NCBI RefSeq assembly: GCF_003670275.1
Contig: NZ_QXJF01000001.1
Coordinates: 1-64,000, forward strand
Length of the DNA: 64,000 bases
Reading direction: 5' to 3'
Source: Helicobacter labetoulli
Lineage (GTDB): Bacteria > Campylobacterota > Campylobacteria > Campylobacterales > Helicobacteraceae
Shown here one piece after another: positions 9 through 17,587 of this stretch. Both the position numbers and the translations under genes were made by a program. Below the pieces are notes generated by a model, which saw nothing but the letters and a program-made list of their open reading frames with translations, had not been told where the DNA came from and ran no database searches. The first letter of the stretch is position 1, and the number at the start of each line of letters is the position of its first letter.

Positions 9-41
9 TCGTCGGCAGCGTCAGATGTGTATAAGAGACAG
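9..41 (+). other. Illumina Nextera transposase adapter (artefact)
   Basis: These 33 bases match the standard Nextera read-1 adapter, beginning TCGTCGGCAGCG and ending with the 19-base Tn5 mosaic end AGATGTGTATAAGAGACAG at 23-41. This is library-preparation sequence left untrimmed at a contig end, not bacterial DNA. Bases 1-8 are therefore also suspect. Whatever lies upstream of the first gene in the real chromosome is missing here. Confidence 0.97.
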
Positions 42-224: not shown

Positions 225-2021
225 ATGTTTTTTTCCTATCCGCTAGATTCTACACTTCTTTTGCGTAAGAAAAAATCGCTTAAGAGACAATTGCTAGATA
301 CTTTACAAACGAATACAGAATCCACTTTACACAAAAATATTGCTATTTTGGGTGGATCTAGTACGCAAGAAGTATGTGATATGCTTGAGCTATTTTTGCT
401 TGATTGCGGGATTGTGCCGCATTTTTATCAAAGTGAATATAATAAATTTTATGAAGATTCTATTTTTGAAAATAAAGCTTTGAAGGATTTTAAGCCAGAT
501 ATTATCTACATTCACACGAGCTTTGTTAATGTGCGTTTTGATGAGAGTGAATGGGCGGCTTTTACTCAAGTGTGGCAAAGTCTAAGCGATACATATCAAT
601 GTGCGATTATTCAAAATAATTTTGAATTGCCTCCGTATAGAATCTATGGCAATCTTGATTCTATCCTGCCGAGTGCGAAAACGCAGTATATCCACACGCT
701 GAATGCGAAAATCCACACAAAAATATATGAAACCCCAAATCTCTATATACACGATATTTGCTATCTTTCAGCTAGTCTTGGACTAGAAAAATGGTATGAC
801 TTCTCGCTCTATGCAAGGACAAAATATGCCCTAAGTCTTGAGTGCATACCACATCTGTCGTGGAATCTAAGCCATATCATCAAAGCGATTTTTGGTATCA
901 ATAAAAAGGCTTTGGCGCTTGATTTAGACAATACGCTGTGGGGAGGTGTGATAGGCGATGATGGCTTAAGTGGGATACATATAGGAACAGAAACACCATT
1001 GGCAGAGAGCTATACGCTCTTTCAAAAATACATTAAAGACTTAAAAGATCGTGGTATTATGCTGAGTGTCTGCTCTAAAAATGAATATGAAAATGCTAAA
1101 AATGGCTTCACACACCCTAGCTCCATTTTGCGATTTGACGATTTTATGAGTTTTCAGGCAAATTGGAATCTAAAAAGTGAGAATATAAAAGTCATAGCTA
1201 AAGAGCTAAATATTGGGCTAAACACACTTGTATTTATTGATGATAATCCAACTGAAAGACATCTTGTTTCACAATCTCTGCCAAGTGTAGCCGTCCCAGA
1301 ATCTCACAACCAACAAATTGACAGAGATTCTCAAGCTGTCTCTCAAATGCTTGGCGTAGATGTGCTAGATTTTATCCCCCATATTGATAAAAATGGCTAT
1401 TTTGAAAGCATCTCTGTATCACAAGAGGATTTAGAGCGTAATAGCTACTATACGCAAAACAAGGCAAGAGATGAGGCTTTAAGTGCATTTACAAACTATA
1501 ACGAGTTTCTTCAAAGCCTTGCTATGAAAGCCCAAATTATTCCATTTTCCCCTCTATTTATGGAGCGTATAGCACAGCTTACAAATAAAACAAATCAGTT
1601 TAATCTCACCACTAAACGCTATACACAAGCCACTTTAGAATCCATAGCAAAAGATTCTAGCTTTATCACATTGCAGGGGCGGCTAAAAGATAGGTTTGGC
1701 GATAATGGGCTTATTGCCCTACTCATCGCAAGAATAGAGGATAAAACGGCACATATTGATTTATGGCTTATGAGCTGCCGTGTCCTAAAGCGGACAATGG
1801 AGTATGCTATGCTTGATACCCTTATCAAACACGCAAAAACTAAGGGCGTGAAAACACTTATAGGTTACTACTACAAAACGCAGAAAAACGCTATGGTAGC
1901 AGATTTATATAGCGATTTTGGCTTTAGCTTGAAAGCACAAGATGGCGATGATAGCATTTGGCAGCTTGATATAGACAAGTATAAGCCCAAAGCTTATTTT
2001 ATAGGAGTAAATGATGACTAA
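225..2021 (+). CDS. FkbH-like protein (HAD-IIIC phosphatase/acyltransferase)
   Basis: This 598-residue protein has the full FkbH layout. An N-terminal SGNH-like region contains IAILGGSSTQE near residue 40. A HAD domain follows with the DLDNT motif at about 233-237, then the family hallmark WGGVIGDDG. The last 150 residues resemble a GNAT domain. FkbH enzymes take a three-carbon unit from 1,3-bisphosphoglycerate, remove the phosphate and load glyceryl onto an acyl carrier protein. The next gene is an ACP overlapping by 11 bases, which fits exactly. The ATG follows AAGGA at a suitable distance. It is the first gene of a six-gene cassette and lies just downstream of a long homopolymer tract, so it may be phase variable. 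The substrate is inferred from the family. Confidence 0.9.
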   Translation: MFFSYPLDSTLLLRKKKSLKRQLLDTLQTNTESTLHKNIAILGGSSTQEVCDMLELFLLDCGIVPHFYQSEYNKFYEDSIFENKALKDFKPDIIYIHTSFVNVRFDESEWAAFTQVWQSLSDTYQCAIIQNNFELPPYRIYGNLDSILPSAKTQYIHTLNAKIHTKIYETPNLYIHDICYLSASLGLEKWYDFSLYARTKYALSLECIPHLSWNLSHIIKAIFGINKKALALDLDNTLWGGVIGDDGLSGIHIGTETPLAESYTLFQKYIKDLKDRGIMLSVCSKNEYENAKNGFTHPSSILRFDDFMSFQANWNLKSENIKVIAKELNIGLNTLVFIDDNPTERHLVSQSLPSVAVPESHNQQIDRDSQAVSQMLGVDVLDFIPHIDKNGYFESISVSQEDLERNSYYTQNKARDEALSAFTNYNEFLQSLAMKAQIIPFSPLFMERIAQLTNKTNQFNLTTKRYTQATLESIAKDSSFITLQGRLKDRFGDNGLIALLIARIEDKTAHIDLWLMSCRVLKRTMEYAMLDTLIKHAKTKGVKTLIGYYYKTQKNAMVADLYSDFGFSLKAQDGDDSIWQLDIDKYKPKAYFIGVNDD

Positions 2022-2256
2022 AGAAGCAATTCATAGTAAGGTGCAAGATATTTTTAGAGATATTTTTGATGATGAGACACTCAATATTGCAGAGCAAACT
2101 CATAGTGAAGATATTGAAGAATGGGATTCTTTAAGTCATATTAATTTAGTTGCTGCGATTGAAAAAGAGTTTTGCGTTAAATTTGCATTGGGCGAACTGC
2201 AAGAGCTTAAAAATGTCGGTGATATGCTGAATCTTATTATCAAAAAGCGTGTGTAA
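2011..2256 (+). CDS. Acyl carrier protein
   Basis: This small acidic protein of 81 residues has the phosphopantetheine attachment motif DSLSHINL, with the modified serine at about residue 40. It overlaps the FkbH-like gene by 11 bases and has AGGAG just before the start. ATG codons at 2011 and 2014 are both possible. It is divergent from typical fatty-acid AcpP and is embedded in an acylation cassette. It is therefore probably a dedicated carrier for the unit loaded by FkbH and processed by the MaoC and SDR proteins downstream. It would need a phosphopantetheinyl transferase encoded elsewhere. Confidence 0.92.
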   Translation: MMTKEAIHSKVQDIFRDIFDDETLNIAEQTHSEDIEEWDSLSHINLVAAIEKEFCVKFALGELQELKNVGDMLNLIIKKRV

Positions 2257-2257
2257 A

Positions 2258-2686
2258 ATGAATGCTTACACATTTGATGAGATTAGCATAGGGCATACAG
2301 AAACTTTTGAGTTTAGTGTGAGTGAAGAAAAAATGGATACATTTTTAAAGCTTACCAATGATACAAATCCTTTGCATATAGATTCTACTTACGCAAAGCA
2401 AAATGGCTTCAATTATCGCGTAGTGTATGGAATGCTAAGTGCGAGCTTTCTATCAACCTTTGCAGGTGTATATCTCCCCGGTAAGTTTTGCTTACTGCAC
2501 GAAGTGGCTATTGGATTCTTAAAGCCTGTGTATGTCGGCGATATGCTAAAGATTACAGGAAAAGTGATAGAAAAGCAAGAAGCATACAAGCAAATCACTA
2601 TTAAAGTGGCTATTGAAAATACGGGGGGAGGGGTAAAACCATTTAAAATTGCCAAAGGACATATCAAAGCGGGTGTTTTACACTAG
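2258..2686 (+). CDS. MaoC-like (R)-specific hydratase/dehydratase
   Basis: The single hotdog-fold domain carries the hydratase-2 motif NDTNPLHIDSTYA with the catalytic Asp and His, followed by VVYGMLSASF. MaoC-family enzymes add or remove water on 3-hydroxyacyl thioesters. The ATG at 2258 lies one base past the ACP stop and is preferred over an in-frame GTG at 2249. Its place between an ACP and a ketoreductase suggests it acts on the ACP-bound acyl unit. If the unit is glyceryl-ACP, dehydration would give an enol that becomes pyruvyl-ACP. That substrate is inference; the fold and motif are clear. Confidence 0.88.
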   Translation: MNAYTFDEISIGHTETFEFSVSEEKMDTFLKLTNDTNPLHIDSTYAKQNGFNYRVVYGMLSASFLSTFAGVYLPGKFCLLHEVAIGFLKPVYVGDMLKITGKVIEKQEAYKQITIKVAIENTGGGVKPFKIAKGHIKAGVLH

Positions 2687-2709
2687 AGATTTTACACAAG
2701 GGGACAATA

Positions 2710-3438
2710 TTGAAAGATTCCATTCTTATTACCGGAGCAAGTTCTGATTTGGGTGTATCGCTTATTCAAAGGCTAGATTCTAAAGCTACCATTTTTGCAC
2801 TTTATCATAGCAATAATGTTTTCAAACAACAATGTTTTAGTGATAGGCACATTATTCCACTGCAATGTGATTTGAGCGATATACATCAAATACAAGCGAT
2901 GATAACACATATTCAAACCATAGCTATACCTAACAAGATCGTTCATTTAGCTTCCCCTAGAATCTGCAATACACATTTTGGCAAACTTGCTTGGGAGGAT
3001 TATAAAACACATTTAAGTATCTCTTTGGAATCCATATTTCACATTCTTCAAGCCTTTATACCGCAGCTTGTAAGGCAAAAAGATAAGCGGGATAAAAAGG
3101 TAGTCTTTATGCTTTCAAGCTGCACTATGGGCGTGCCACCTGCGACGCTAAGTCATTATGTAACAGCAAAATATGCACTTTTAGGCTTACTTAAATCGCT
3201 CACAAGTGAGTATAGAAGCAAAAATATTCAATTTAATGCCATCTCTCCATCAATGATTGAAACAAAATTTCTATCAAATATAAATGAAAAAATAATAGAG
3301 CTAAACGCCTATAATCACCCGCTTAAACGCAACGCTACAATAGATGATGTCCTACCTACACTGCTCTTTTTGCTAAGCAGAGAATCTAACTACATTAATG
3401 GCGAAAATCTCATCATATCTGGCGGAGAGGTGTTTTAA
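2710..3438 (+). CDS. Short-chain dehydrogenase/reductase (FabG-like)
   Basis: This is a classical SDR of 242 residues. The nucleotide-binding motif is TGASSDLG near residue 8, the catalytic Ser is around 136, and the YVTAK motif has Tyr150 and Lys154. Such enzymes usually reduce 3-oxoacyl-ACP or similar ketones with NADPH. Translation appears to start at TTG 2710, preceded by AAGGGG. The stop overlaps the ATG of the MBOAT gene, so the two are translationally coupled. In context it probably reduces the carrier-bound unit made by FkbH and MaoC, but the exact ketone is unknown. Confidence 0.88.
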   Translation: MKDSILITGASSDLGVSLIQRLDSKATIFALYHSNNVFKQQCFSDRHIIPLQCDLSDIHQIQAMITHIQTIAIPNKIVHLASPRICNTHFGKLAWEDYKTHLSISLESIFHILQAFIPQLVRQKDKRDKKVVFMLSSCTMGVPPATLSHYVTAKYALLGLLKSLTSEYRSKNIQFNAISPSMIETKFLSNINEKIIELNAYNHPLKRNATIDDVLPTLLFLLSRESNYINGENLIISGGEVF

Positions 3439-4943
3439 TGCTATTTTCATCATATATCTTTATTTTTGCCTTTTTACCTGTGGTGTTTTGTGTGTATTTT
3501 ATGCTTAATCACAAAGGCTTTTATAGGACTTCTATTGTGTGGCTTACATTTGCTAGTTTATTCTTTTATTCATATTGGAATATTATGTATCTGCCGCTTT
3601 TGCTACTCTCCATTGGCTTTAATTATACGATTTCTGGCTTTATGCTAAAAGCTCAAGAGAAAGCAAAGCTTGGCAGTATGCAATTTTTGAGTAATAAAAA
3701 ATTGCTTTACATCGCAATTATTTTTAATATCTCATTACTTTGCTTTTTTAAATATATGGACTTTTTTATAGAGAATGTGAATCTGGTTTTTGGCAGTGAC
3801 ATTGGGCTACTTCATATTGTGTTGCCTTTGGGGATTAGCTTTTTTACTATTACGCAAATTGCGTTTTTGGTGGATTGCTATGAAGGTTTGGTGAAAGAGA
3901 GAAATCCTATCAATTACGCACTTTTTGTTACATTTTTCCCTCATCTTATTGCCGGTCCTATTTTGCATCATAAAGAGATGATGCCCCAATTTGCCGATAC
4001 GAATAATAAGATTCTAAACTATAAGAATCTCTCTCTTGGGCTATTTCTCTTTTCCATTGGCTTATTTAAAAAAGTAGTCATTGCTGATAGTTTTGCAAGG
4101 TGGGCGAATGCTGGATTTAGTGTGGTAGAAAATGGCGAGATTCTTAATTTTTTTGAATCTTGGGCGAGTATTTTATGCTATGCTTTTCAGCTCTACTTTG
4201 ACTTTAGCGGATATAGTGATATGGCTGTGGCTTTGGGACTTATGTTTAATATCAAACTGCCTATTAACTTTAACTCCCCATTTAAAGCGTGTAATATTTC
4301 TGATTTTTGGCGTAGGTGGCATATAAGCCTTACAAATTTCATCACCACTTATATCTATACGCCTATGATTAGAGCTTTTAAGAATCCTACATTTGCCAAA
4401 ATGATGGTGGCTACATTTTTGACTTTTCTCATCGCTGGAATCTGGCACGGATCTGGCTGGGGCTTTGTGATATTTGGGGCTTTACACGGCTTAGCCCTTG
4501 TGATCCATCAATATTGGAGTAAAAAATGGAGTAAGATTCTACAATTTAAGTTTCCAAAGATTCTAGGTTGGCTACTCACTTTTCTACTCGTGCTTGTGGC
4601 TTTTGTATTTTTTCGTGCTGAAAATCTGCAAGGGGCGGTGAATCTGTTAAAGGGAATGTTTGGTGGGGACATAGTCTTACCTAGCTTTTTAGAATCTAGG
4701 CTTGGATTCTTAAGTGAATATGGGATTCAATTCCATTGGTGGTTAGAGCAGATAGAGGGGAGCTTTATAACGCCATTGTGGATTCTAGGGGCTTTTATTG
4801 TGTGTTTATGTTTCAAAAATAGTGTGGAACAAACAGCACATTTCAAGCCTACAAGATTCAATCTTTTTACAACCGCTCTTTTTTCGCTTATAGCTTTTCT
4901 TTCCATTGATAAAGCACAACAATTTTTATATTTTAATTTTTAA
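3438..4943 (+). CDS. MBOAT-family membrane O-acyltransferase (AlgI/DltB-like)
   Basis: This polytopic membrane protein of 501 residues has MBOAT signatures: DFWRRWHISLT at about 289-299 and GIWHGSGWGFVIFGALHG at about 334-351, which contains the conserved membrane-embedded histidine. The family moves acyl groups from a cytoplasmic thioester across the membrane to polysaccharide, teichoic acid or protein. Alginate O-acetylation (AlgI) and D-alanylation (DltB) are the models. The start overlaps the SDR stop. The next gene encodes an SGNH-type single-pass protein, the usual periplasmic partner. The natural donor is likely the cassette's own ACP; the acceptor is unknown. Confidence 0.92.
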   Translation: MLFSSYIFIFAFLPVVFCVYFMLNHKGFYRTSIVWLTFASLFFYSYWNIMYLPLLLLSIGFNYTISGFMLKAQEKAKLGSMQFLSNKKLLYIAIIFNISLLCFFKYMDFFIENVNLVFGSDIGLLHIVLPLGISFFTITQIAFLVDCYEGLVKERNPINYALFVTFFPHLIAGPILHHKEMMPQFADTNNKILNYKNLSLGLFLFSIGLFKKVVIADSFARWANAGFSVVENGEILNFFESWASILCYAFQLYFDFSGYSDMAVALGLMFNIKLPINFNSPFKACNISDFWRRWHISLTNFITTYIYTPMIRAFKNPTFAKMMVATFLTFLIAGIWHGSGWGFVIFGALHGLALVIHQYWSKKWSKILQFKFPKILGWLLTFLLVLVAFVFFRAENLQGAVNLLKGMFGGDIVLPSFLESRLGFLSEYGIQFHWWLEQIEGSFITPLWILGAFIVCLCFKNSVEQTAHFKPTRFNLFTTALFSLIAFLSIDKAQQFLYFNF

Positions 4944-4952
4944 GGAGCAAAG

Positions 4953-6116
4953 ATGAAATATAAAAAGTTTGTTTTATCTTATTTTATGATTTTGCTTATA
5001 TTTGGACTACTGCTTGTAGGCATATTTTATTATCTCTCTAGAATCTTTGAACATAATAGCTTTGAAAGCATTGTGAAAAGACAACTGGAGCAGAACTCCA
5101 TTTATGGCACAGCATTAAATGAAAATGTCTTTGCCTACAAGCTTGAGCTAGTGAAGCAGATAAAGCCAAAGATTATAGCACTTGGTGCCTCTAGGGTATT
5201 GCAGTTTAGAGAAAAGTTTTTTATAGATTCTTTTGTGAGTGCGGGTAATGCGATGAATACACTCAAAGAAGGGAGGTTATTTTTAGAAGAAGTATTAAAG
5301 TTTTACAAACCTGAAATAGTCATCTTAGGGCTTGATATTTGGTGGTTTAATGCTTTATATCCAAACTATGAAAGGGGAGAATATTTTAATATCACAGGGA
5401 CAAATATTAGCACAACAAAGATACTTGATATAGCAAAACATATTTACAACCAGCAATTCTTTCAATCTCAATATCTCTTAGACAATCATTTTATTACAAA
5501 TCCTTATAGCAATCTTGATTCTTTAGGACTAAATGCCATATATAATGGCAGGGGCTTTTTCAAAGATGGCTCATATTTGTATGGAGAGATTTTTAAAAAC
5601 GAAAAGACTAAAGATGCCAACTTTACTGACACCTTGTTACGCATTACACAAGGAATAAGTAGGTTTGAATATGCTTCCCACATAGATGCAAAGCGTATGC
5701 AGGATTTATTTGATATACTCAATCTTTTAGAAAAACATCATATACAAGTTGTTATTTTTATCCCTCCTCTTGCTCCAAGTGTATATCAAGCTATGCAGGA
5801 CAAACAAGAAAAATATGCTTATATTGATGAACTCTTTGCAACATTGCAAAAATATCACATCCCTTTTTTCAACTATCACAATCCGGCAGTTTTACATAAT
5901 GACAATTGCGAGTTTTTAGATGGTTTTCACGGAGGAGATGTATTTTACGCAAGAATCCTTGCAGATATGGCACAAAAAAGTGAGATTCTAAAATCCTATG
6001 TCAATATGCCTTATCTCACAGAGCTAATACGCACACATAAAGGCAGGGTATTTTCTAAAGATTCTGTGAGCGATTTAAAAGAGCAAGACTTTTTAAATTT
6101 GGGGTGTGGGAAGTAA
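4953..6116 (+). CDS. Membrane-anchored SGNH-like protein (AlgJ/DltD-type partner of MBOAT)
   Basis: This 387-residue protein has one N-terminal membrane helix at about residues 8-28 and then a periplasmic domain. The domain shows GASR with Ser80 and DGFH with Asp323 and His326, the spacing expected of an SGNH Ser-Asp-His triad. The overall plan resembles DltD and AlgJ/AlgX-type proteins, which work with an MBOAT channel to place acyl groups on extracellular polymers. A strong TAAGGAG precedes the ATG, ten bases after the MBOAT stop. It is the last gene of the cassette. I recognise the motif pattern, not a specific named family. Confidence 0.75.
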   Translation: MKYKKFVLSYFMILLIFGLLLVGIFYYLSRIFEHNSFESIVKRQLEQNSIYGTALNENVFAYKLELVKQIKPKIIALGASRVLQFREKFFIDSFVSAGNAMNTLKEGRLFLEEVLKFYKPEIVILGLDIWWFNALYPNYERGEYFNITGTNISTTKILDIAKHIYNQQFFQSQYLLDNHFITNPYSNLDSLGLNAIYNGRGFFKDGSYLYGEIFKNEKTKDANFTDTLLRITQGISRFEYASHIDAKRMQDLFDILNLLEKHHIQVVIFIPPLAPSVYQAMQDKQEKYAYIDELFATLQKYHIPFFNYHNPAVLHNDNCEFLDGFHGGDVFYARILADMAQKSEILKSYVNMPYLTELIRTHKGRVFSKDSVSDLKEQDFLNLGCGK

Positions 6117-6144
6117 GGCTATCTCCCTTTTTTCTTTTTATTGT

Positions 6145-6164
6145 CCCCCCCCCCCTTTTTTTTT
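6145..6164. repeat. Poly-C (11) and poly-T (9) tract between convergent genes
   Basis: Eleven C at 6145-6155 run directly into nine T at 6156-6164, in the 86-base gap between the convergent ends of the SGNH gene and the efflux permease gene. The preceding ATTGTC echoes the ATTGTCCC before the tract near 121-166, so similar tracts bracket the FkbH cassette. It lies outside any gene and promoter I can define, so any switching role is unclear. It may mark a recombination boundary. Confidence 0.7.
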
Positions 6165-6202
6165 GCACCGCCTTTCTACTACTTTTTTGCCCTTTTTGTT
6201 TA

Positions 6203-7420
6203 TTACTCGTGTCGCAGGGCGTCAATGGGGTTAAGCTTTGAAGCGCGTCTAGCTGGGAGATAGCCAAACAAGATTCCAATAAAAGCAGAAAACAAAAAGG
6301 CAACAATGGCTGTTGGCACATCAAAAATAAATGGAATCTCCATATAATAGCTTAATCCAAGTGAAGCAAAAAACGCCCATATAATCCCAATCAAACCACC
6401 AAAGGAGCTTAGTGTAATAGATTCAATCAAAAACTGCATAAGCACCTCACTTTGCAACGCCCCAATCGCCATACGCGTCCCAATCTCCTTTGTCCGCTCG
6501 GTTACAGAAACAAGCATAATATTCATAATGCCAATACCCCCAACAATCAAACTCACCCCCGCTATCATACCCAAAAGCCCTGTTAGCCTTTTTGTCGTGG
6601 AAGTAAGTGTTTGCTCAATTTGCTTAGTATCCATAATCTCAAAGGAATCTTTCTCACCAACGCGGACATTTCTCACTTCACGCAAAGCCTGAGTTAAAAC
6701 AGGAAGTATTTCTGTGGAATCGGCATTATCCTTTGCCCTAAGCATTAAGCGATTAACAAAAAAGAGTGAGTTATTCCCTGAAACAGAGCGTAAAAACGCC
6801 TTCATAGGCAGTAAAATCACATCATCTTGATCATTTCCCATACCGCCCTGCCCTTTAGATTCTAAAACGCCTATACATTCACATACAATGTTATTTAAGC
6901 GGATTTTCTGCCCGAGCGGATTACTCTCATTAAAAAGATTTTTTCGCACAGATTCGCCTATCAAGCAGACATTACTCCCCACACGATATTCATTTTCTTC
7001 AAAGTCCCTGCCCTCACTACTATCCCATTGCGTTACTTCAAAAAAGCCTTCCGTTACGCCTTGAGCCTGTGTAGTGGTATTTTGAGATTGAAATTGCAGC
7101 ACAACTGAACTTTGCAAGATGGGTGCAACAGCTTGTATATAATCTTGTGTAAGGGCTTGTAGCCTTTGGGCTTCTTGCAAACTAAAATTACGGCGTAAAT
7201 TTGCCCCACTTGGATTCATAGCCCTTGCAGGAAACACAAGCAAAAGATTGCTTCCAAGTGAAGAAATTCTATCTGTTATCATTTTGGTTGTGCCATTGCC
7301 TATGCTAATCATCACAACAACCGCCCCAACGCCAATAATCACGCCAAGCATTGTCAAAAATGCGCGTAGAAAATTCCGCCTTATCTGCCGAAAGGCTAAC
7401 ATAAAGGCATTGAGTATCAT
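6203..7420 (-). CDS. MacB-type ABC transporter permease
   Basis: The 405-residue protein has an N-terminal membrane helix containing MLGVIIGVGAVVVMISIG. A MacB-type periplasmic core of about 200 residues follows, then three C-terminal helices of the FtsX fold, including GIGIMNIMLVSVTERTKEIG. E. coli MacB is a fusion of ATPase and permease; here the ATPase is the separate upstream gene, which overlaps by four bases. Such mechanotransmission transporters do not carry substrate through the membrane. They drive periplasmic substrates, such as macrolides, lipopeptides or siderophores, out through a TolC-type duct. It is the last gene of the operon. Confidence 0.9.
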   Translation of the reverse strand: MILNAFMLAFRQIRRNFLRAFLTMLGVIIGVGAVVVMISIGNGTTKMITDRISSLGSNLLLVFPARAMNPSGANLRRNFSLQEAQRLQALTQDYIQAVAPILQSSVVLQFQSQNTTTQAQGVTEGFFEVTQWDSSEGRDFEENEYRVGSNVCLIGESVRKNLFNESNPLGQKIRLNNIVCECIGVLESKGQGGMGNDQDDVILLPMKAFLRSVSGNNSLFFVNRLMLRAKDNADSTEILPVLTQALREVRNVRVGEKDSFEIMDTKQIEQTLTSTTKRLTGLLGMIAGVSLIVGGIGIMNIMLVSVTERTKEIGTRMAIGALQSEVLMQFLIESITLSSFGGLIGIIWAFFASLGLSYYMEIPFIFDVPTAIVAFLFSAFIGILFGYLPARRASKLNPIDALRHE

Positions 7421-8196
7421 AAATCCCCCTTAGAATCCATCTCTAAAGTATCAGTAGTTATAGAATCCGCCCTTAAAGATTCAGCCTTTTGAGCGTTTAA
7501 AGTATCGCTTTGTGAATCAGCCACCAACTTACCATCTAAAAAATGCAATTCTCTCTTGGCATATCTCGCCATATCCGGCTCGTGCGTTACCATAAGAATC
7601 GTAATACCTAAACTTTGATTTAAGCTCTTTAGAATCTCCATTATCTCCACACTTCTTTTGGTATCAAGATTCCCCGTTGGTTCATCGGCAAGTAAAAAAA
7701 GTGGTTCCTGTGCGATCGCCCTAGCGATAGCCACTCTTTGCTGCTGTCCGCCACTTAGCTTGGCACTTGTATGCTCTGCCCATTCTCTAAGCCCTACTTT
7801 ATCAAGCGCTTTCAAGGCTATCTCTTCACGCACTGCCTTTTTCACCCCACGATACATCAAGGGTAGCTCCACATTTTCAAGTGCCGTTGTGCGGGGCAGG
7901 AGATTAAATCCTTGAAAAATAAAGCCTATATAATTGCGGCGGAGCAAGGCGCGTTCATTGTGAGATAAGCTAAACACATCTATATCCCCAAAGTGATATT
8001 CTCCACTACTCCCCACATCAAGTGTGCCTAGAATATTGGCAAGGCTTGATTTACCCGATCCACTAGGACCCATAAGGGCGACAAACTCCCCCTTATCTAT
8101 CTGCAAACTCACGCCCTTTAATGCTTCAAACGCACTCTCTCCCTTGCCATAAGTCTTATGAATATTTTTTAGGACAATAAAATTACGAGATTCCAT
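7417..8196 (-). CDS. MacB/LolD-type ABC transporter ATPase
   Basis: This 259-residue ATPase has a Walker A motif (GPSGSGKSS), a Q-loop (FQGFNLLPRTTALENVELP), the signature LSGGQQQR, a Walker B followed by DEPTGNLD, and an H-loop His in VTHEPD. It belongs to the MacB/LolD subfamily. About 35 residues at the C terminus, rich in Ser, Thr and Asp, extend past the core domain. It overlaps the permease by four bases and sits ten bases after the adaptor gene. It would energise the permease at the cytoplasmic face of the inner membrane. Confidence 0.93.
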   Translation of the reverse strand: MESRNFIVLKNIHKTYGKGESAFEALKGVSLQIDKGEFVALMGPSGSGKSSLANILGTLDVGSSGEYHFGDIDVFSLSHNERALLRRNYIGFIFQGFNLLPRTTALENVELPLMYRGVKKAVREEIALKALDKVGLREWAEHTSAKLSGGQQQRVAIARAIAQEPLFLLADEPTGNLDTKRSVEIMEILKSLNQSLGITILMVTHEPDMARYAKRELHFLDGKLVADSQSDTLNAQKAESLRADSITTDTLEMDSKGDL

Positions 8197-8205
8197 ATCT
8201 CTGCC

Positions 8206-9510
8206 TTACTTCATCTTTATATTTGTAATGATGGGCGTTGTTTCATCAATTCCACTTAGAATCTGCGTAAAATTCCCATTGCTAATGCCTAGCTCCACGC
8301 TCACAGATTCTGCCTTGCCATTGTTTAGAATCCACAGAGTCCCCGTTTTTGTATGAGATTTTTGTTTGCTATGAATCTGTGCTTTGGGGCGAGGTGGCGG
8401 GGCAAACATATTCCCAAGAGATGAGCTAGTTTTTTTACCCCCCACTTTTTGCAAGGATTTGTTTAAGTCAAAATACAAAGCCGAGCTTGGCACAAGCAGG
8501 ACATTTTCTGCCTTTGCAGTGATAATATCAGCTGTAGCACTCATATCAGGGCGTAAAAGCAAGGATTTGTTATCCACTTCAATTTTAGCACGATAGATAA
8601 TAATACTTGAGCTTGAGCTACTAGAACTTGAATTACTTGAGCTACTAGAACTGCCATCACCTGAGCCAAAATTCACACGATTAACCTTTGCGTGAAAGAT
8701 TCTATCTGGATAAGCATCAACGCTAAAAGTAACCTCCTGCCCCTCTTTGACTTTGCCAATATCAGCTTCCGAAATACTTGCATAAAGCTGCATCTCTTCT
8801 AGGTTTTCAGCTACCTTAAACAAAGTTGGTGCTTGAAAACTCGCCGCCACACTCTGCCCTACTTCCACATTACGAGTAAGCACAATGCCATCAACGGGCG
8901 AGATAATCTCGGAATTTTTTAAATCAATCTTAGCACTTTCAATACTTGTTTGAATCTCCACAATAGAAGCGCGTTTAATATCCACATCAGCACGAGCACT
9001 TGTATAATTTGTCTTGGCATTTTGTAGCTCTAAAAGCGAGGGAGAAGCTCCATTTGTCGCATTATACAACTCTTGCAATCTATCATAATTCCACTTTTTA
9101 TCCTTTAAAGTTTGCTCACTTGCTTTGAGTTGGGCTTTAGCGGAATTAAGCTGTGCGGTGTATTTGGCAATTTGCTGATTAATGCTTTCAGGATTAATGC
9201 GAGCTAGAATCTGCCCTTTTTTCACTTCATCATTTTCTTCTACCAACACTTCAAGCACTAGCCCAGAGATAACACTCCCTATCTCCACTTCATTCACGGG
9301 GGAAAGTGAGCCAGAAGCCGAAATGCTTGATTGTATATCGCCTCTTGTTGCGTGTGTGCTCTCAAAACTTACTTTTGATTGAAGCAGCCACCACACAAGA
9401 GCACTGCCTAGAATGATGATAACTAATATAGCGATGATAATGCCCCACGCTAGAGGCGTGAGCTTTTTTCTTATTTTTTTGGGCTTTAATGTTTGATATA
9501 GATTCATCAT
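8206..9510 (-). CDS. MacA-type periplasmic adaptor (membrane fusion protein)
   Basis: This 434-residue adaptor has one inner-membrane helix at about residues 17-43, then lipoyl and beta-barrel segments (SGSLSPVNEVEIGS, VDGIVLTRNVEVGQSV) flanking an alpha-helical hairpin. It would bridge the MacB-type transporter and the outer-membrane duct. A striking serine-rich stretch of about 20 residues follows GSGDG in the beta-barrel domain and is encoded by a short internal repeat near 8605-8655. The C terminus is also extended. ATG codons at 9510 and 9507 overlap the stop of the TolC-like gene. Confidence 0.9.
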   Translation of the reverse strand: MMNLYQTLKPKKIRKKLTPLAWGIIIAILVIIILGSALVWWLLQSKVSFESTHATRGDIQSSISASGSLSPVNEVEIGSVISGLVLEVLVEENDEVKKGQILARINPESINQQIAKYTAQLNSAKAQLKASEQTLKDKKWNYDRLQELYNATNGASPSLLELQNAKTNYTSARADVDIKRASIVEIQTSIESAKIDLKNSEIISPVDGIVLTRNVEVGQSVAASFQAPTLFKVAENLEEMQLYASISEADIGKVKEGQEVTFSVDAYPDRIFHAKVNRVNFGSGDGSSSSSSNSSSSSSSSSIIIYRAKIEVDNKSLLLRPDMSATADIITAKAENVLLVPSSALYFDLNKSLQKVGGKKTSSSLGNMFAPPPRPKAQIHSKQKSHTKTGTLWILNNGKAESVSVELGISNGNFTQILSGIDETTPIITNIKMK

Positions 9511-11018
9511 TCTACCTTTTGCGTTGAAGTTTGTTGTGCTACACTTTCTAGTGCGAGATTCCCACCTAATGCTTTAAAAAGCGTGATGAGTGAGAGAATC
9601 TCATTTGTCTTTGCGTTAAAAAGCTGTGTTTGCAAAGATAGATAAGTGTTTTCTTGTGTTAAAAAATCATTTGTATCAAGCACTCCACGCGTATTTTTGG
9701 CACTATTACTTTCATAAGCTTTTACTCCCACTTCATAGGCATTTTGCGTATTTTGAGTTTGTCGTTTTTTAGATTCTATATCAAACAAGGCATTTTCAAT
9801 TTCACTTAAAGCGGTGTTAATATTATTTTGCAAAGTGTAGTATGCCTCTTTACTTAGCTCCTTTTGAATAAGGTAGTTTTGCTTTAAAGATGTGCGATTA
9901 AGAAGCGGGGCGGTAATGGAATTTGCGATTTGAAAAACAAGCGACCCAGCCCCTGCACTGCTATATAGAATCTCACCTACAGAGCCACTAAGAGAAATGC
10001 TAGGCAACCTTGCAGCTTTTGCATTAGTTTGCTTGTAAAGTTGAGAATGTAAGGCGTATAAGCTAGATTCAATATCGGGGCGAGAGAGCAGAATCTCACT
10101 TGGCATTTTATCTATATGAAATGTTGCAATTTGTGGAAAAGTATAAACAGATTCCATAAAATCTATATGTTTATTCAGCTCACTCAATTCAATGTTAAGT
10201 AATACAAGCAGGGCATTTTTATTTTGTTCAAAGGTATAAAGCAGGGTTTCATAGCTATTTTTTTGTGTCGTGGTATTTGCCACAAAGCTTTGATATGTAG
10301 CAATGTCAATAAGCCCAAAATGCAACTTTTGAGTATTGATAGATTCAATCTCTTCAAGATTCTTAAGCGTATTCTTAGCAAGATTTAACGCTCTAGCATT
10401 ATCACGCAATGTAAAATACAGATTTGCCACTTCGGCAATAAGCGAGATTTGTGCGTAGGCGAGATTGCTTTGAGCGATGGCATAGTCTTTTTTACTTGAT
10501 TGACGCAAAGCATTAAGCTTCCCAAACAAATCAAGCTCCCAGCTCATACCTACACTTGCATTTATGGAGTTTGCTCCGGGGCGGATAGCTGTGGTTTGTG
10601 AAAGGGTGCGTCTATCAATGTAGCTTGAGTTAAGGCTACCATTGATTGTAGGGAGCATACTTGCGGTATTGATTTTTACTTGCGATTTGGCTTGCTTAAT
10701 ACGAGAAGTCATTGTCAGCACATTAGTATTATTTTCTAAAGCAATGTGAAGCAAAGAATGAAGCTCTTTATCATCAATGAGTGCTATAAATTGCTTAAGA
10801 CTAAAGGGCATATCATCTGTGTGATTTTGAGTAGATTCTGTATCTTGTTTTATTTGTGAATCTTGAGATGATAAATCTTTGGCAAGTGAAGCAATATTAT
10901 GAAATTTTTGTGGGATATGCGTTTGCTCTGCACTCTCTTCAAGACTTGGAATCTTTGTGCTACACCCTGCAAAAATGCAAATAAGTAAGATTCTGCTAAA
11001 GGCTCTAAAATGCGTCAT
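9507..11018 (-). CDS. TolC/NodT-type outer-membrane efflux lipoprotein
   Basis: The 503-residue protein begins with a lipoprotein signal peptide ending in the lipobox FAGC. Two long coiled-coil repeats typical of outer-membrane efflux proteins follow. Recognisable segments include WELDLFGKLNALRQSSKKDYAIAQ and a second-half repeat with PDIESSLYALHSQLYKQTNAKAARLPSISLSGS. It is the first gene of the operon and probably supplies the exit duct for the MacA- and MacB-type proteins encoded downstream. AGGGGAT precedes the start codon. Confidence 0.9.
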   Translation of the reverse strand: MTHFRAFSRILLICIFAGCSTKIPSLEESAEQTHIPQKFHNIASLAKDLSSQDSQIKQDTESTQNHTDDMPFSLKQFIALIDDKELHSLLHIALENNTNVLTMTSRIKQAKSQVKINTASMLPTINGSLNSSYIDRRTLSQTTAIRPGANSINASVGMSWELDLFGKLNALRQSSKKDYAIAQSNLAYAQISLIAEVANLYFTLRDNARALNLAKNTLKNLEEIESINTQKLHFGLIDIATYQSFVANTTTQKNSYETLLYTFEQNKNALLVLLNIELSELNKHIDFMESVYTFPQIATFHIDKMPSEILLSRPDIESSLYALHSQLYKQTNAKAARLPSISLSGSVGEILYSSAGAGSLVFQIANSITAPLLNRTSLKQNYLIQKELSKEAYYTLQNNINTALSEIENALFDIESKKRQTQNTQNAYEVGVKAYESNSAKNTRGVLDTNDFLTQENTYLSLQTQLFNAKTNEILSLITLFKALGGNLALESVAQQTSTQKVE

Positions 11019-11037
11019 TCTATCCCCTAAAATCCTT

Positions 11038-11043
11038 AATATA
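11038..11043 (-). promoter_or_regulatory. Candidate -10 element of the efflux operon
   Basis: On the minus strand TATATT lies about 20 bases before the start codon of the TolC-like gene, which would give a very short leader. No clear -35 is visible, which is common in Helicobacter. It is back-to-back with the lipoprotein-operon promoter. Confidence 0.35.
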
Positions 11044-11092
11044 AAATGAAGTCTGGCATACTATTGAAACATTGTGAAGTTTAAGTGAAATC

Positions 11093-11112
11093 AAAAAAAA
11101 AAAAAATATAAT
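11093..11112 (+). promoter_or_regulatory. Promoter with A14 tract abutting TATAAT
   Basis: Fourteen A residues at 11093-11106 run straight into a perfect -10 box, TATAAT, at 11107-11112. The A tract fills the spacer region, where length changes are known to tune transcription of some H. pylori surface genes. Transcription would begin near 11119. That places the ATG at 11113 upstream of the mRNA start and supports the ATG at 11149 as the real start of the first lipoprotein gene. Confidence 0.65.
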
Positions 11113-11148
11113 ATGAACCCTCTCAAAATTTTACACAAAAGGAGTGCA

Positions 11149-12591
11149 ATGAGGTATGTTTATTCAGTTTTAGTGCCATTATGGCTGATTTTAATGACTG
11201 CGTGTTCTCATCAAGGGGCTTTGCAAACTTTCAACGAACACTATTATGGTGGAGAGGATACAAAGGCTTATGAATACGCAAAATCACAAGCAGGAGATTC
11301 TGGAGATGTTTTATGGAATCTACAAGCGGGTGTCAGTGGCTTTGGCTCATCACAAGAAGATGTTGCAACTTTGCTAGAACAAGGAGAGGGATTGTTTAAC
11401 AAATATGAATCTGAAGGCTTGATGGGTGGCTTATTTGGCAATGTGGGTGCTGTGCTTGTGAATGAAAATGTCAAAACCTATCGTGGCAATATCTATGAGG
11501 GCGTTTTATTTAACTACTACAAAGCGTTAAATGCTATGGAGCTAGGAGATTACGCTTTGGCTCGTGTAGAGTTTAATAGAGCAAATGACAGGCAACGCAG
11601 GGCAAAGGAGTATTTTAGAAAAGATATTAATAAAGCAATGGAAGAAAGCAAGAAGGAAAATGCTTCAAATGAGGATCTTAAAAATATTAATGCTGGACAT
11701 ACCAAGGAAAGCACAGCTTCTATTTTAGAATCTCAATATAGCAACCTTAAAAACTTTAATATCTATGAAGGCTTTATTAACCCAGCTGTAAGCTATGTTT
11801 CAGCTCTATTTTTTATGAGTGAGGCGGATTACTCAAAAGCGACTGATTTGTATAAAGAGGCTTATGGAATCACTCACGCTTATGTAATCAATCAGGATTT
11901 AGAAGTGATGAATAAACGCAAAAGGGGTGATAAAACAAAATACACTTGGTTTATCATAGAAGATGGCAAAAGTGCTTCACTTGAAGAGCTATCCATTGAC
12001 TTACCTGCATATCTTGTAAGTGAAAGTGTCTTGCACGTGGGCGTGTCAATCCCACAACTGAAAGAGGGTATCCCAAGTGCAAGTTTATACCAAGCAGTGA
12101 GTCATAAGAACAAGAGAGAATACAAGGCTTTTGAAGTAAGTGATACCGATGGTGTTATTGCAAATGAGTTTAGTGAAAAACTCCCTTTTATCCTTACTCG
12201 TGCTATAAGCTCTGCCATCTTAAAGGCAACAACTCAAGCGACTTTAAATAATGTGGGTGGCGATCAGTTTGGTGCGACTGGAGCGATTGTAGGATCGCTT
12301 GTTGGAGCGGCTTATTCTGCAGCTACAAATAATGCTGATGTGCGTATCACAACAGCTCTGCCAAAGCGAGTTTTAGCTCTGCAAGTGCCAAATAATGCGT
12401 TAGATTTTGCACTTCAAGCCGATGGCAACACATTGTATGAAGTAAGTTTTTCTTGCAAAAAAGATACAGAAAGCGAGAAAAAAGTAAGCAATGTTATTGT
12501 TTTGTGCGATAAAAATGATAACATTCTTTATCTGCGTTCAAAAGGTAAAAATCCAACTTATCAAATTCTAAAAGGAGGAATCAATGAATAA
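11149..12591 (+). CDS. Large lipoprotein of the COG3014 type
   Basis: The protein of about 480 residues starts with a lipoprotein signal ending in LMTAC. Its central part has helical repeat-like segments, including EGVLFNYYKALNAMELGDYALARVEFNRANDRQRRAKEYF, typical of COG3014 proteins. A glycine/alanine-rich hydrophobic stretch (GATGAIVGSLVGAAYSAA) lies near residue 395. The ATG at 11149 follows AAAGGAG by five bases and is preferred over the in-frame ATG at 11113, which falls at the promoter. It heads a four-gene lipoprotein operon and overlaps the LpoB-like gene by eight bases. The family has no established biochemical function that I know of. Confidence 0.75.
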   Translation: MRYVYSVLVPLWLILMTACSHQGALQTFNEHYYGGEDTKAYEYAKSQAGDSGDVLWNLQAGVSGFGSSQEDVATLLEQGEGLFNKYESEGLMGGLFGNVGAVLVNENVKTYRGNIYEGVLFNYYKALNAMELGDYALARVEFNRANDRQRRAKEYFRKDINKAMEESKKENASNEDLKNINAGHTKESTASILESQYSNLKNFNIYEGFINPAVSYVSALFFMSEADYSKATDLYKEAYGITHAYVINQDLEVMNKRKRGDKTKYTWFIIEDGKSASLEELSIDLPAYLVSESVLHVGVSIPQLKEGIPSASLYQAVSHKNKREYKAFEVSDTDGVIANEFSEKLPFILTRAISSAILKATTQATLNNVGGDQFGATGAIVGSLVGAAYSAATNNADVRITTALPKRVLALQVPNNALDFALQADGNTLYEVSFSCKKDTESEKKVSNVIVLCDKNDNILYLRSKGKNPTYQILKGGINE

Positions 12592-13192
12592 GAAGTTAGT
12601 AGCGTGTGGAGTGGCTTTAAGCACACTTCTCATAGCTGGGTGCAGTGGCGGACCTGAATATGTAGATGCGTCAAATTCTAAGGCGTATGCGAGTATGGGC
12701 TTAGATTACCACGATATTGAAAAGGCAGCCACTGATAGTGTGCAGTCTCTTTTGAGCAGTGCTCAAGTGCGTGAAATCTCACAAGGTGGGAAGAAAAGAG
12801 TCGTTATGATTTCTGGTGTAATTAATGACACTATGCAGACGATTGATACCGACCAGCTTAGTCGTAAGATTACACGCGATATGAGAAATAGTGGTAAGTT
12901 TGTGCTTACTCTAGCTCAAGGGGCAAAGACTGAAAAAGGCATTGATATGGCAAGAAGTGCGCGTGATAATGATGAGTTTGATCAACGCACAACCATAGAA
13001 AAAGGCAATCTAAAATCTGCCGAACTTTCACTCTCTGGGAAAATCGTGCAAAAGAACACAAAAGTTGGCTCAAAGCAACGCACAGATTATTTTTTCTTAC
13101 TTACACTGACCAATCTTAAAGATGGAACTGTTGTCTGGGACGATGAAGTCAATATCATCAAGCTTGGCTCAAACTCATCGGTAACTTGGTAA
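12584..13192 (+). CDS. LpoB-like lipoprotein
   Basis: A lipoprotein signal ends in LIAGC. The mature part matches the LpoB/FlgO-like fold family: KRVVMISGVINDTMQTIDTDQLSRKITRDMRNSGKFVL, then a second half with AELSLSGKIVQKN and a conserved DYFFLLTLTNLKDGTVVWDDE. In E. coli LpoB activates penicillin-binding protein 1B from the outer membrane; whether this homologue does so is not established. AAAGGAGG precedes the ATG inside the end of the previous gene. Its neighbours suggest a shared outer-membrane complex. Confidence 0.8.
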   Translation: MNKKLVACGVALSTLLIAGCSGGPEYVDASNSKAYASMGLDYHDIEKAATDSVQSLLSSAQVREISQGGKKRVVMISGVINDTMQTIDTDQLSRKITRDMRNSGKFVLTLAQGAKTEKGIDMARSARDNDEFDQRTTIEKGNLKSAELSLSGKIVQKNTKVGSKQRTDYFFLLTLTNLKDGTVVWDDEVNIIKLGSNSSVTW

Positions 13193-13222
13193 GATTCTAA
13201 AACTAAAAACAAAGGAGATAAA

Positions 13223-13810
13223 ATGAATACAAAGGCAAAATTGTTAGCAGGAAGTGTTGTAGCGGCATTATTACTCATTGGCTGTGGTGGCGATGATTCA
13301 CTTGGGGTTGGCGGTAAAAGCATAGATAAAAAAGCACTTAAGGCTCTCAATCTTAAAGGTGCGCCAAATTGGGTGCTTAATGCTGGACAAGGCGATATGA
13401 GTGCTATTGGAGATGCGGAAATTGTAGGTGGAGATTTAGGCTTTGCGCGCAATGAAGCCCTTGCTTTAGCTAGAGATGAAATCGCACGACAAGTTTCAGT
13501 AAGTGTTAAAGGCTCACTTTTAAATGCTAAAAGCAAAACTAAAAGTGATATGGGTGATGCGAGTATGCAGTCTATCACAGAGGAAATTACAAAACAAAGC
13601 ACAGATACGATTCTTAGTGGGACAAAACAAACTGACACTTGGATAACTGATGATGGCTCACGCATTTTTGTTCTTGCAAAGCTTGATGAAGGTAACAAAG
13701 CAAAACTTGAAGCAAATGTAAAAAAGCAAATTGCTCAAAACAGGCTTATCCCCAATGATATGAAGCGAGAAATGCTGGAAAACCTTGATTTAAGCTCTAG
13801 TGCTGAATAA
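13223..13810 (+). CDS. LPP20-family lipoprotein
   Basis: This 195-residue protein has a signal peptide ending in LIGC and a mature domain typical of the LPP20 family: GAPNWVLNAGQGDMSAIGDAEI followed by ARNEALALARDEIARQVSVSV. Lpp20 is a conserved surface or outer-membrane lipoprotein of H. pylori. The related FlgP is part of the flagellar basal disk in Campylobacter. AAAGGAG precedes the start. It is followed after 13 bases by a second LPP20-like gene. Which of the two corresponds to H. pylori Lpp20 cannot be decided here. Confidence 0.82.
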   Translation: MNTKAKLLAGSVVAALLLIGCGGDDSLGVGGKSIDKKALKALNLKGAPNWVLNAGQGDMSAIGDAEIVGGDLGFARNEALALARDEIARQVSVSVKGSLLNAKSKTKSDMGDASMQSITEEITKQSTDTILSGTKQTDTWITDDGSRIFVLAKLDEGNKAKLEANVKKQIAQNRLIPNDMKREMLENLDLSSSAE

Positions 13811-13823
13811 AGATTGGTAGAGA

Positions 13824-14714
13824 ATGCGGTTAATAGGTATCTTAGCGATAGGGGCTGTTTTTTGGTTGGCTGGTTGCGGTGGCGATTCGCCTAAGCAACC
13901 TACTTGGTTTGGTAAAAACGCACAAAGTGAAGCTTTTATGATTGGCTTTGGTAGTGCCAAAACGCTTGATGTCGCCAAAGCAAGAGCATTAAGTGATATA
14001 AGCAATCAGCTAAGTGTGCAGGTGAGTTCGCAGTTTAAATCACACACACAAAGGCAAGATTCCCATATCACACATAGTGTGAGCAATGAAGTCAAGCTTG
14101 ATACGGCTGGGATTGAGCTAAGTGATGTGAGCTATGTCAAAGATGAGTTTAAGGACAATCAATATTTTGTCCAAGCTCAGATTCCAAAAGCTTCACTCAT
14201 TAAGCAGTTTCAAAACTCATTTAACAAAGAGTATGGTGCTTTAAACTTTAATAGAATGTCGCAATGCAGTAGCATTTCAATCAAAGACAAAATGCGTCTA
14301 GCGTATGCATTAGATAAACTTAGTCTTTATGGAATGCTTTTGCACTCGCTTGGTGTGAATACAAGGGATCTTTCAGCACTTGAAGATACGCTTTCCGCAA
14401 ACTCGCCCATGCCCACCGCACGGCTTCAGATTCAAGGTGCAGAGGCTGATATTGTCTCAGCTGAACTTGCACAGGAGCTAGGAGAGTTTTACAACTTTGA
14501 TTCAGAGGCGGAGAATGTGATTAATGTTAAGCTTAAGATGGTGCTTATTAACGGGAATACAATTAAAGCTGATGCGATTATGACAATCTATGATTGCCGC
14601 AAAAATGCTGTATTTACAACTAGTGTAAGTAACATTGATGATTCGCTTAGCTTCACAGCCAAACGCATTGGGGTTCAGCTCTACAAAAAGCTTCAAGAAT
14701 GGGTAGAAAGCTAA
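13824..14714 (+). CDS. LPP20-like lipoprotein, larger paralogue
   Basis: The signal peptide ends in LAGCGG. The first half repeats the LPP20 pattern: PTWFGKNAQSEAFMIGFGSAKTLDVAKARALSDISNQLSVQVSS. The C-terminal 150 residues are a separate domain I do not recognise. It is 296 residues against 195 in the preceding paralogue, so the pair probably arose by duplication plus a C-terminal addition. It ends the lipoprotein operon; a hairpin terminator lies about 50 bases downstream. Confidence 0.78.
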   Translation: MRLIGILAIGAVFWLAGCGGDSPKQPTWFGKNAQSEAFMIGFGSAKTLDVAKARALSDISNQLSVQVSSQFKSHTQRQDSHITHSVSNEVKLDTAGIELSDVSYVKDEFKDNQYFVQAQIPKASLIKQFQNSFNKEYGALNFNRMSQCSSISIKDKMRLAYALDKLSLYGMLLHSLGVNTRDLSALEDTLSANSPMPTARLQIQGAEADIVSAELAQELGEFYNFDSEAENVINVKLKMVLINGNTIKADAIMTIYDCRKNAVFTTSVSNIDDSLSFTAKRIGVQLYKKLQEWVES

Positions 14715-14765
14715 TCTCTTAACATTTTGAAGAATCTCTTGGCTAAAAAGCCTTTTGATTTTTTT

Positions 14766-14792
14766 AGCTCTCCACTTCGGGGAGCTATTTTT
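14766..14792 (+). terminator. Rho-independent terminator of the lipoprotein operon
   Basis: An 8-bp stem, AGCTCTCC paired with GGGGAGCT with one G-U pair, has loop ACTTC and is followed by ATTTTT. A smaller hairpin, GGCT-AAAA-AGCC with T residues after it, lies at 14741-14758. Both are just downstream of the last lipoprotein gene. Confidence 0.75.
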
Positions 14793-14962
14793 CACTTAAC
14801 TTTATAGATTAAAACTCTTACAAATTAAATTTTAAGATTTTGAAATCCGCCCTACATTCTCTCGCGTAAAAAGCTACTTAAATGCTTTATTTTTTTTTGG
14901 GTAAGACTTTAAGAAAAAAGCTATTTTTTAAGGAATATGTCAATGAAGTAAAAATTGTTTCT

Positions 14963-15457: not shown

Positions 15458-15500
15458 TCTGCACCTCCATTAAATAACAGAATATAAGCAAATAATATTC

Positions 15501-16412: not shown

Positions 16413-16460
16413 AATCTATTATCCTTTTGTGAGTTTTGCGGCATTTTAGCAAAATTTACT

Positions 16461-16769
16461 TTAGCGTTTGTTAATGCGTTTTTCAAAATCTTTTTTTAGC
16501 TTTTCTTCTTGCTCTCGTTCAGCTTTTTTTAACCTTTTAAGCTCTTCAATCCTCTCATTTTCAAGGGCAATTTTTTTCTCCCTACTATCACGGATTCTCT
16601 GCATATACTGTTCACGCCTTTTTGGGTCTTGATAGCGAATAGGCTTCATAAACAGCACACCCACGATGATAAAGAAAAATACCAACGCCATTGCAGCATC
16701 TTCCCCACCAAAATGATACCAAGTCGCCCCAACAACCGCCGCTAGAAGAAGTTTCCAAAACGCCTGCAT
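16461..16769 (-). CDS. Small membrane protein with charged coiled coil
   Basis: This 102-residue protein has two hydrophobic segments at about 4-20 and 27-42. A strongly basic/acidic coiled coil makes up the rest (RIEELKRLKKAEREQEEKLKKDFEKR). Its start overlaps the last base of the HdrB-like gene, so it belongs to the same operon as the cysteine-depleted SdhB/HdrB-like pair. It could serve as their membrane tether. That role is inference; I do not recognise the family. Confidence 0.65.
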   Translation of the reverse strand: MQAFWKLLLAAVVGATWYHFGGEDAAMALVFFFIIVGVLFMKPIRYQDPKRREQYMQRIRDSREKKIALENERIEELKRLKKAEREQEEKLKKDFEKRINKR

Positions 16770-17584: not shown

Positions 17585-17587
17585 AGC

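Follow-up and report, generated by a model that had tools for sequence, protein, structure and literature searches.

The window analysed here is a 64,000-nucleotide stretch of Helicobacter labetoulli DNA (NZ_QXJF01000001.1, positions 1 to 64,000 of the forward strand) whose first base is also the first base of contig C11 in a 2.09 Mb draft genome of the Helicobacteraceae. Close to its beginning, six intact plus-strand open reading frames fill positions 225-6116 in the order FkbH, acyl carrier protein (ACP), MaoC, short-chain dehydrogenase/reductase (SDR), MBOAT and SGNH; adjoining genes overlap or are separated by 23 nucleotides or less, as a preliminary description of this DNA had it. Pfam and NCBIfam searches back five of the six gene families, SGNH being the exception. 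The cassette is far from a chance assembly, since the genes stand in the same order in 12 further genomes of the Helicobacteraceae, from four other genera, as well as in other phyla. We propose that the operon probably serves a carrier-protein-fed, Dlt-like acylation of the cell surface with a glycerate-derived acyl group, a lactyl route being the best reading.

The first gene (225-2021, plus strand) encodes an FkbH-type phosphatase/glyceryltransferase of 598 residues (TIGR01686, 1.8e-83; PF21211, 5.5e-14; PDB 3slr). Its score of 280 bits on TIGR01686, with a cut-off of 147, places it in the FkbH family, and its HAD motifs DLDNT (D233/D235/T237), SKN (K285) and DDNP (D339/D340), together with C518, are invariant among 10 aligned homologues. 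The free-standing ACP of 81 residues that comes next (2011-2256, plus strand) has a DSLS phosphopantetheine site from residue 39 (PF00550, PP-binding, 1.3e-5); it falls under every NCBIfam cut-off, and the DltC model is not among its matches. FkbH homologues examined in vitro charge discrete ACPs with glyceryl drawn from 1,3-bisphosphoglycerate, giving glyceryl-S-ACP (PMC3625739; see also PMC7489565), and the FkbH of the window would likewise load glyceryl from 1,3-bisphosphoglycerate onto its ACP.

The two following genes encode candidate tailoring enzymes. MaoC (2258-2686, plus strand, with an alternative GTG start at 2249) is an R-hydratase-type dehydratase of 142 residues (PF01575, 6.3e-15), whose catalytic residues, D35 and H40, do not vary among 23 homologues; its structural model (pLDDT 94.6) has the hot-dog fold with the Asp/His pair and matches PhaJ (5cpg) in Foldseek at 3.6e-11. 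The SDR (2710-3438, plus strand, TTG start), 242 residues long, is a ketoreductase of the FabG-like YxxxK type (PF13561, 5e-31), in which Y150 and K154, retained by all of 18 homologues, are spaced as in FabG-type ketoreductases.

The last two genes would form the transfer machinery. The MBOAT O-acyltransferase (3438-4943, plus strand; 501 residues; PF03062, 2.2e-33) carries the conserved histidines of this family in RRWHISL (from residue 292) and WHG (from residue 336) and matches DltB in the PDB (6bug, 3e-30); on the DltB model TIGR04091 it scores 173 bits, below the cut-off of 375 for a DltB equivalog. It ends in the hexapeptide FLYFNF (residues 496-501; 4923-4940, plus strand), an instance of the FxYxxF acyl-shuttle motif, whose tyrosine becomes acylated in PatA and DltX (PMC12148441) and here corresponds to Tyr498. 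A second MBOAT in the same genome, on contig C21, ends in FIYASF. The sixth protein (4953-6116, plus strand; 387 residues) is a putative SGNH-type periplasmic acyltransferase partner, with an N-terminal membrane helix as anchor, GASR from residue 78 (Ser80) and DGFH from residue 323 (D323/H326). By sequence, it matches DUF1574 below the cut-off and none of the NCBIfam models, the DltD equivalog included. Its structural model is mediocre (pLDDT 63, four sequences), with TesA and DltD among the best Foldseek matches at E values of 0.014-0.045 and none below 0.001. SGNH homologues come after MBOAT also in L068, L086 and L048.

A family survey, in which 121 genomes were searched for FkbH of the window subfamily, found such proteins (52-98% identity) in the window's genome and in 12 others from four further genera (G051; G092; G095, G096, G097, G099 and G100; G018, G019, G020, G022 and G025). 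The order FkbH-ACP-MaoC-SDR-MBOAT is kept in nearly all of these 12 relatives; the variants are a second MaoC in genus g2, the lack of MBOAT behind SDR in G096, and the lack of the first MaoC and of SDR in G025. In other families of the phylum, the FkbH proteins fall into a subfamily that is more distant and whose members are mostly shorter. A wider scan of 84,980 species genomes yielded 80 named FkbH loci, the closest to a MaoC-positive query, which span Bacillota, Bacteroidota, Pseudomonadota, Myxococcota, Acidobacteriota and others. On the same strand as FkbH and no more than 7.5 kb away, ACP is found in 75 of the 80 loci and MBOAT in 59, so that FkbH-ACP-MBOAT constitutes a cross-phylum core; a Flavobacterium cassette lacks the MBOAT. 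The suggestion of the preliminary description that an FkbH/ACP pair feeds an MBOAT-SGNH pair finds support in this comparison across loci.

MaoC is present in 21 of the 80 loci, and a ketoreductase accompanies it in 18 of these, as against none of the 59 MaoC-negative loci. Fifteen of the reductases are SDRs (one of them, in L120, lying 6.9 kb downstream), and in L109, L130 and L153 the SDR is replaced by an aldo-keto reductase (PF00248). The FkbH tree shows 15 changes of the MaoC label, at least nine of them on starred branches; among nine independent pairs the reductase follows MaoC in six to nine and moves in the opposite direction in none. Judged by gene content, MaoC and the ketoreductase appear to behave as an optional tailoring unit inserted between FkbH/ACP and MBOAT. 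Their co-occurrence fits a ketone-forming dehydration of glyceryl-ACP to pyruvyl-ACP with subsequent reduction to lactyl-ACP, and since the unrelated aldo-keto reductase family can substitute for the SDR, the reduction step is supported beyond mere co-inheritance.

These data bear directly on plain glycerylation, in which FkbH, ACP, MBOAT and SGNH would transfer glyceryl itself and MaoC and SDR would serve another step or be mere neighbours. Bare-core glyceryl transfer is indeed likely elsewhere, as 59 of the 80 related loci have neither MaoC nor SDR, and several relatives with an out-of-frame MaoC retain the remaining genes. Yet in five genera of the Helicobacteraceae, and also in Bacteroidota and Pseudomonadota, MaoC and SDR lie between ACP and MBOAT, and the ketoreductase, an aldo-keto reductase at some loci, tracks MaoC over the FkbH tree with no case to the contrary; for the window we consider plain glycerylation rather unlikely. 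The preliminary description had offered a lactyl or a glyceryl system, with MaoC and SDR possibly occupied otherwise. That the two enzymes form one optional unit favours lactyl over such an outside role, the lactyl identity itself being one that we infer.

For the lactyl route, the chemical steps, the acyl group and the acceptor that we infer from the observed gene content, motifs, order and co-occurrence would be as follows. FkbH would use 1,3-bisphosphoglycerate to form glyceryl-S-ACP. MaoC would dehydrate this thioester, the resulting enol tautomerising to pyruvyl-S-ACP, which the SDR would reduce to lactyl-S-ACP. At the inner membrane face, the MBOAT core would then move the acyl group from ACP to its own Tyr498 within FLYFNF, from which the SGNH protein would hand it on to a hydroxyl group on some extracytoplasmic polymer that is probably a glycan. 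A core without MaoC and ketoreductase would transfer glyceryl.

Several observations weigh against this reading. No ketoreductase is visible in three MaoC-positive loci, namely L107, where a contig end cuts the locus, L113 and L141. Kinship among the 80 loci, themselves the closest to a MaoC-positive query, inflates simple P values for co-occurrence. The assignment of the SGNH partner draws on sequence motifs, on gene position and on a fold match that is weak. Finally, MBOATs 59-74% identical to that of the window occur in G046, G047 and G058, genomes without any FkbH match; MBOAT sequence alone is therefore no proof of a glycerate-derived donor, and its use as a predictor of the acyl donor was rejected for the same reason.

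The fold of MaoC, which is closest to R-specific enoyl-CoA hydratases, and the FabG-like character of the SDR would also suit a PhaJ/FabG-like pair that draws on fatty-acid intermediates to supply MBOAT with a 3-hydroxyacyl group for transfer, for example (R)-3-hydroxybutyryl. We regard this as improbable, as the cassette has neither ketosynthase nor thiolase; FkbH, moreover, always adjoins the pair, a weak point given that the loci were collected by FkbH. Another known fate of glyceryl-ACP, in polyketide clusters, is oxidation (PMC7489565), and the locus might be a small secondary-metabolite pathway of the FK520 type leading towards hydroxymalonyl or methoxymalonyl. In favour of this, a methyltransferase lies between ACP and MaoC in two relatives from the Helicobacteraceae (G095 and G099; L071, 9780-10670, minus strand, and L072, 10926-11648), where each copy bears its own poly-G/C tract of 11-12 nucleotides. 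A Pseudodesulfovibrio has a methyltransferase between ACP and MBOAT. The cassette, however, contains no polyketide synthase or second dehydrogenase, the MBOAT-SGNH pair comes next, and MaoC would have no role in such an oxidation, all of which makes the FK520-type alternative highly improbable.

Other enzymes, too, are found with the tailoring unit. A split transketolase, encoded as N- and C-terminal halves, occurs in six of the 21 MaoC-positive loci and in none of the 59 MaoC-negative ones; the carriers are Bacillota (L109, 15926-17658; L130, 6378-8112; L116, 11785-13542; also L141, L153 and L107). In these loci a pyruvyl-type intermediate might conceivably undergo a thiamine-dependent step. 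In two genomes (L073, 11775-12014; L074, 11700-11955), SDR and MBOAT are separated by a second, small ACP-like gene, which has a G10-G12 tract and, on its own, matches no Pfam family.

The genome G051, from a different genus, contains a 98%-identical copy of the cassette that is a natural chimera. This copy shares about 91-100% DNA identity with the window from the FkbH start codon to approximately position 4658, at MBOAT codon ~407. At this approximate crossover (4658-4659) the window-like sequence gives way to resident sequence, past which the MBOAT is 95-100% identical to the MBOATs of G047 and G046, two genomes of the same genus without an FkbH match. The 330-residue SGNH-like protein that comes after it is of the type found behind the G046 and G047 MBOATs. 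In this chimera, therefore, donor genes and MBOAT core move as one, and the C-terminal helices and shuttle peptide stay with the SGNH partner. Such a split would be expected if the MBOAT core recognises the donor in the cytoplasm and its C-terminus passes the acyl group to SGNH. Judged by its DNA identity, the G051 copy shows recent transfer between genera.

The chimera is also relevant to the idea that MBOAT and SGNH form an ordinary O-acetyltransferase dependent on acetyl-CoA, with FkbH-ACP-MaoC-SDR as an unrelated adjoining unit. Such pairs are present without FkbH in many Helicobacteraceae, and PatA uses acetyl-CoA (PMC12148441). Against this stand the overlapping genes and their conserved order, the proximity of MBOAT to FkbH and ACP across phyla, and the fact that the unit of recombination in G051 comprises both the donor genes and the MBOAT core. 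We give the O-acetyltransferase idea little credence.

In the relatives, MaoC carries a poly-G tract of 8-17 nucleotides in 11 of 11 loci, six of them in frame and five out of frame. It lies at codons ~123-128 in G051 (G11), G092 (G10), G096 (G11), G095 (G12), G018 (G17), G022 (G9), G019 (G15) and G020 (G8), near the 3' end in G099 (G10), and at codon ~51 in G097 (G9) and G100 (G10). The frame is shifted at the tract in G095, G019, G020 and G097, and the G099 gene stops earlier. Counted per gene, tracts of at least eight G or C are found in MaoC (11/11 loci) and FkbH (8/12), and in none of the ACP (0/12), SDR (0/11) or MBOAT (0/11) genes. Overall, 23 tracts in 57 kb of cassette compare with seven in 153 kb of flanking DNA, a ratio of 8.8, for which, the genomes being related, the P value is a rough guide. 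By its homopolymers the MaoC of the relatives is a putative contingency gene and that of the window is not: the counterpart of the tract in the window, GGGGGGAGGGG (2623-2633, plus strand), as found by sequence comparison, is interrupted (G6-A-G4) and encodes a glycine loop in frame. With the tract interrupted and the protein unchanged, the window MaoC looks fixed in the ON state. In the MaoC model, the tract encodes the loop 122-128 ahead of the last beta-strand (129-140), a position where in-frame changes of length should be tolerated and a frameshift would remove the last strand. MaoC proteins of other phyla have a short hairpin in place of this loop.

FkbH has tracts of its own in a linker at codons ~26-40, C11 (encoding PPPP) in G097 and G100, and G9-G15 in G022, G019, G025 and G020; the different bases at the same linker point to probably independent origins. 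MBOATs without FkbH (genus g3 and G006) carry a poly-G/C tract within the MBOAT gene itself at about codon 80, several of them out of frame (L080, 2032-2045; L081, 9439-9449; L082, 9299-9311; L086, 7231-7241). In L075 (G018) there is a C19 tract at the contig start (1-19) and a C14 tract within a second SGNH-like gene (12866-12879); from the L075 tract, it would seem that SGNH partner genes can be phase-variable too.

In G095 and G097, MaoC is out of frame while FkbH, ACP, SDR and MBOAT are intact. This raises the possibility, which we put forward tentatively, that MaoC of the Helicobacteraceae is a phase-variable switch of chemistry, giving lactyl when in frame and glyceryl when out of frame, with the FkbH tract as a second switch that turns the whole modification off. 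The separate FkbH switch in several loci mildly favours such a lactyl/glyceryl switch, as one switch would be enough for on/off control. Conversely, MaoC could be merely a further on/off switch if the MBOAT refuses glyceryl.

The closest functional parallel is the Dlt system of teichoic-acid D-alanylation (DltA, DltC, DltB, DltX and DltD), which shares with the cassette an MBOAT and an acyl-Tyr shuttle peptide; its SGNH-type transferase has a putative counterpart in the sixth gene, and its carrier-bound donor one predicted from the ACP gene. Unlike Dlt, however, the cassette would activate its substrate by FkbH and 1,3-bisphosphoglycerate instead of the adenylating DltA, its ACP is not DltC, it has an extra dehydratase and reductase, and its shuttle peptide is fused to the MBOAT. 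A genome-wide search for a DltA equivalog returned none above the TIGR01734 cut-off, the best match reaching 296 of 560 bits on another contig. Three adenylation-domain-like proteins lie in a row at G000:C13:17502-22501, possibly a small peptide or surface-modification locus; they score 166-296 bits on the DltA-type model, under its cut-off. Going by the DltA, DltB and DltD models, none of which identified an equivalog, the cassette would work like Dlt without being a member of it. PatA-PatB, which O-acetylates peptidoglycan, and other MBOAT-SGNH pairs similarly have a C-terminal FxYxxF on the MBOAT, and their separate SGNH partner has its putative equivalent here; the donor of PatA is acetyl-CoA, whereas here a carrier protein and a loading enzyme are present. 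MBOAT/SGNH pathways other than Dlt have been described as having no carrier protein (PMC12148441). In the free-standing FkbH/ACP pairs of tetronate and methoxymalonate polyketide pathways, as predicted here, a discrete ACP is charged with glyceryl from 1,3-bisphosphoglycerate (PMC3625739, PMC7489565). In contrast to those pairs, the product here would go to a membrane acyltransferase and not to a polyketide synthase, and MaoC and a ketoreductase replace the two oxidising dehydrogenases.

As for the acceptor, neighbouring genes gave no consistent link to lipopolysaccharide, capsule or flagellar glycan. In G099, a set of PPDK-like, glutamine-amidotransferase, nucleotidyltransferase and inositol-phosphatase genes lies upstream of the cassette, which we take to resemble the capsular phosphoramidate genes of Campylobacter. 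A precedent of a different kind, proposed in the preliminary description, is the bryostatin loading module, where FkbH-type loading is followed by dehydration and reduction to lactyl, albeit within a polyketide synthase module and not by separate enzymes as here. Our literature search, thin on subscription journals, found no paper joining bryostatin, FkbH and lactate; nor did it find one linking FkbH to an MBOAT surface system or lipopolysaccharide, or anything relevant on lactoyl or glyceroyl O-antigen or on MaoC phase variation. In the related bacterium C. jejuni, the pseudaminic acid of flagellin is modified with di-O-methylglyceric acid (PMC3068675). That system resembles the one proposed here in decorating a surface glycan with an acyl group derived from glycerate and in having a phase-variable gene; it differs in that no MBOAT-SGNH route was described and the genes making its glycerate were not named there. 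The window's genome has a second FkbH in another locus (L085, G000:C5:1-18000, positions 2302-17955), next to ACP, MaoC, a glyoxalase-like protein, a formyltransferase, KAS III, SDR, NeuB and UDP-GlcNAc 2-epimerase; this locus probably serves a nonulosonic-acid glycan and has an acyl chemistry of its own, recalling the C. jejuni flagellin glycosylation island.

The setting of the cassette is shaped by the contig end. A sequence read directly at 9-41 (plus strand), tcgtcggcagcgtcagatgtgtataagagacag, is that of the Nextera read-1 adapter, an assembly artefact outside the locus, and short open reading frames at 3-210 (VRSSAASDVYKRQ..., MCIRDRY...) are partly translated adapter sequence. As the contig ends in this adapter, the upstream neighbourhood of FkbH and any 5' extension of the operon would lie beyond the window. 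This adapter, the poly-G tracts in the MaoC of relatives, the acyl-Tyr hexapeptide and the donor/acceptor chimera all go beyond the preliminary description. C12 (133-144) and T14 (153-166) tracts lie 60-90 nucleotides 5' of FkbH, possibly a length-variable promoter region. The T tract is kept as T13 before FkbH in L067 despite diverged DNA farther upstream; matches in a promoter scan were no commoner than in shuffled sequence. At the other end, C11 and then T9 (6145-6164) directly follow the SGNH stop codon, between convergent genes, and a MacB-type export system comes next on the opposite strand. In G092, flanking genes are repeated and the two copies (L068 and L069) sit at opposite ends of one contig (G092:C1), so that duplication with a decaying copy was rejected; most likely, the ends of a circular chromosome overlap there untrimmed and contain base errors.

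The cassette thus points to a carrier-protein-fed relative of the MBOAT-SGNH systems in many phyla, against the published statement that limits the carrier protein to Dlt (PMC12148441), with plug-in tailoring enzymes (dehydratase, SDR or aldo-keto reductase, methyltransferase, split transketolase) placed between loading and export. It would connect glycolysis with surface acylation and predicts lactyl or glyceryl esters that are lost from base-treated glycan preparations. The G051 chimera offers a natural donor/acceptor tool to dissect MBOAT specificity. The dehydratase switch, if true, would be surface variation of a new kind among the relatives of Helicobacter, in which the kind of acyl group, and not just its presence, varies.

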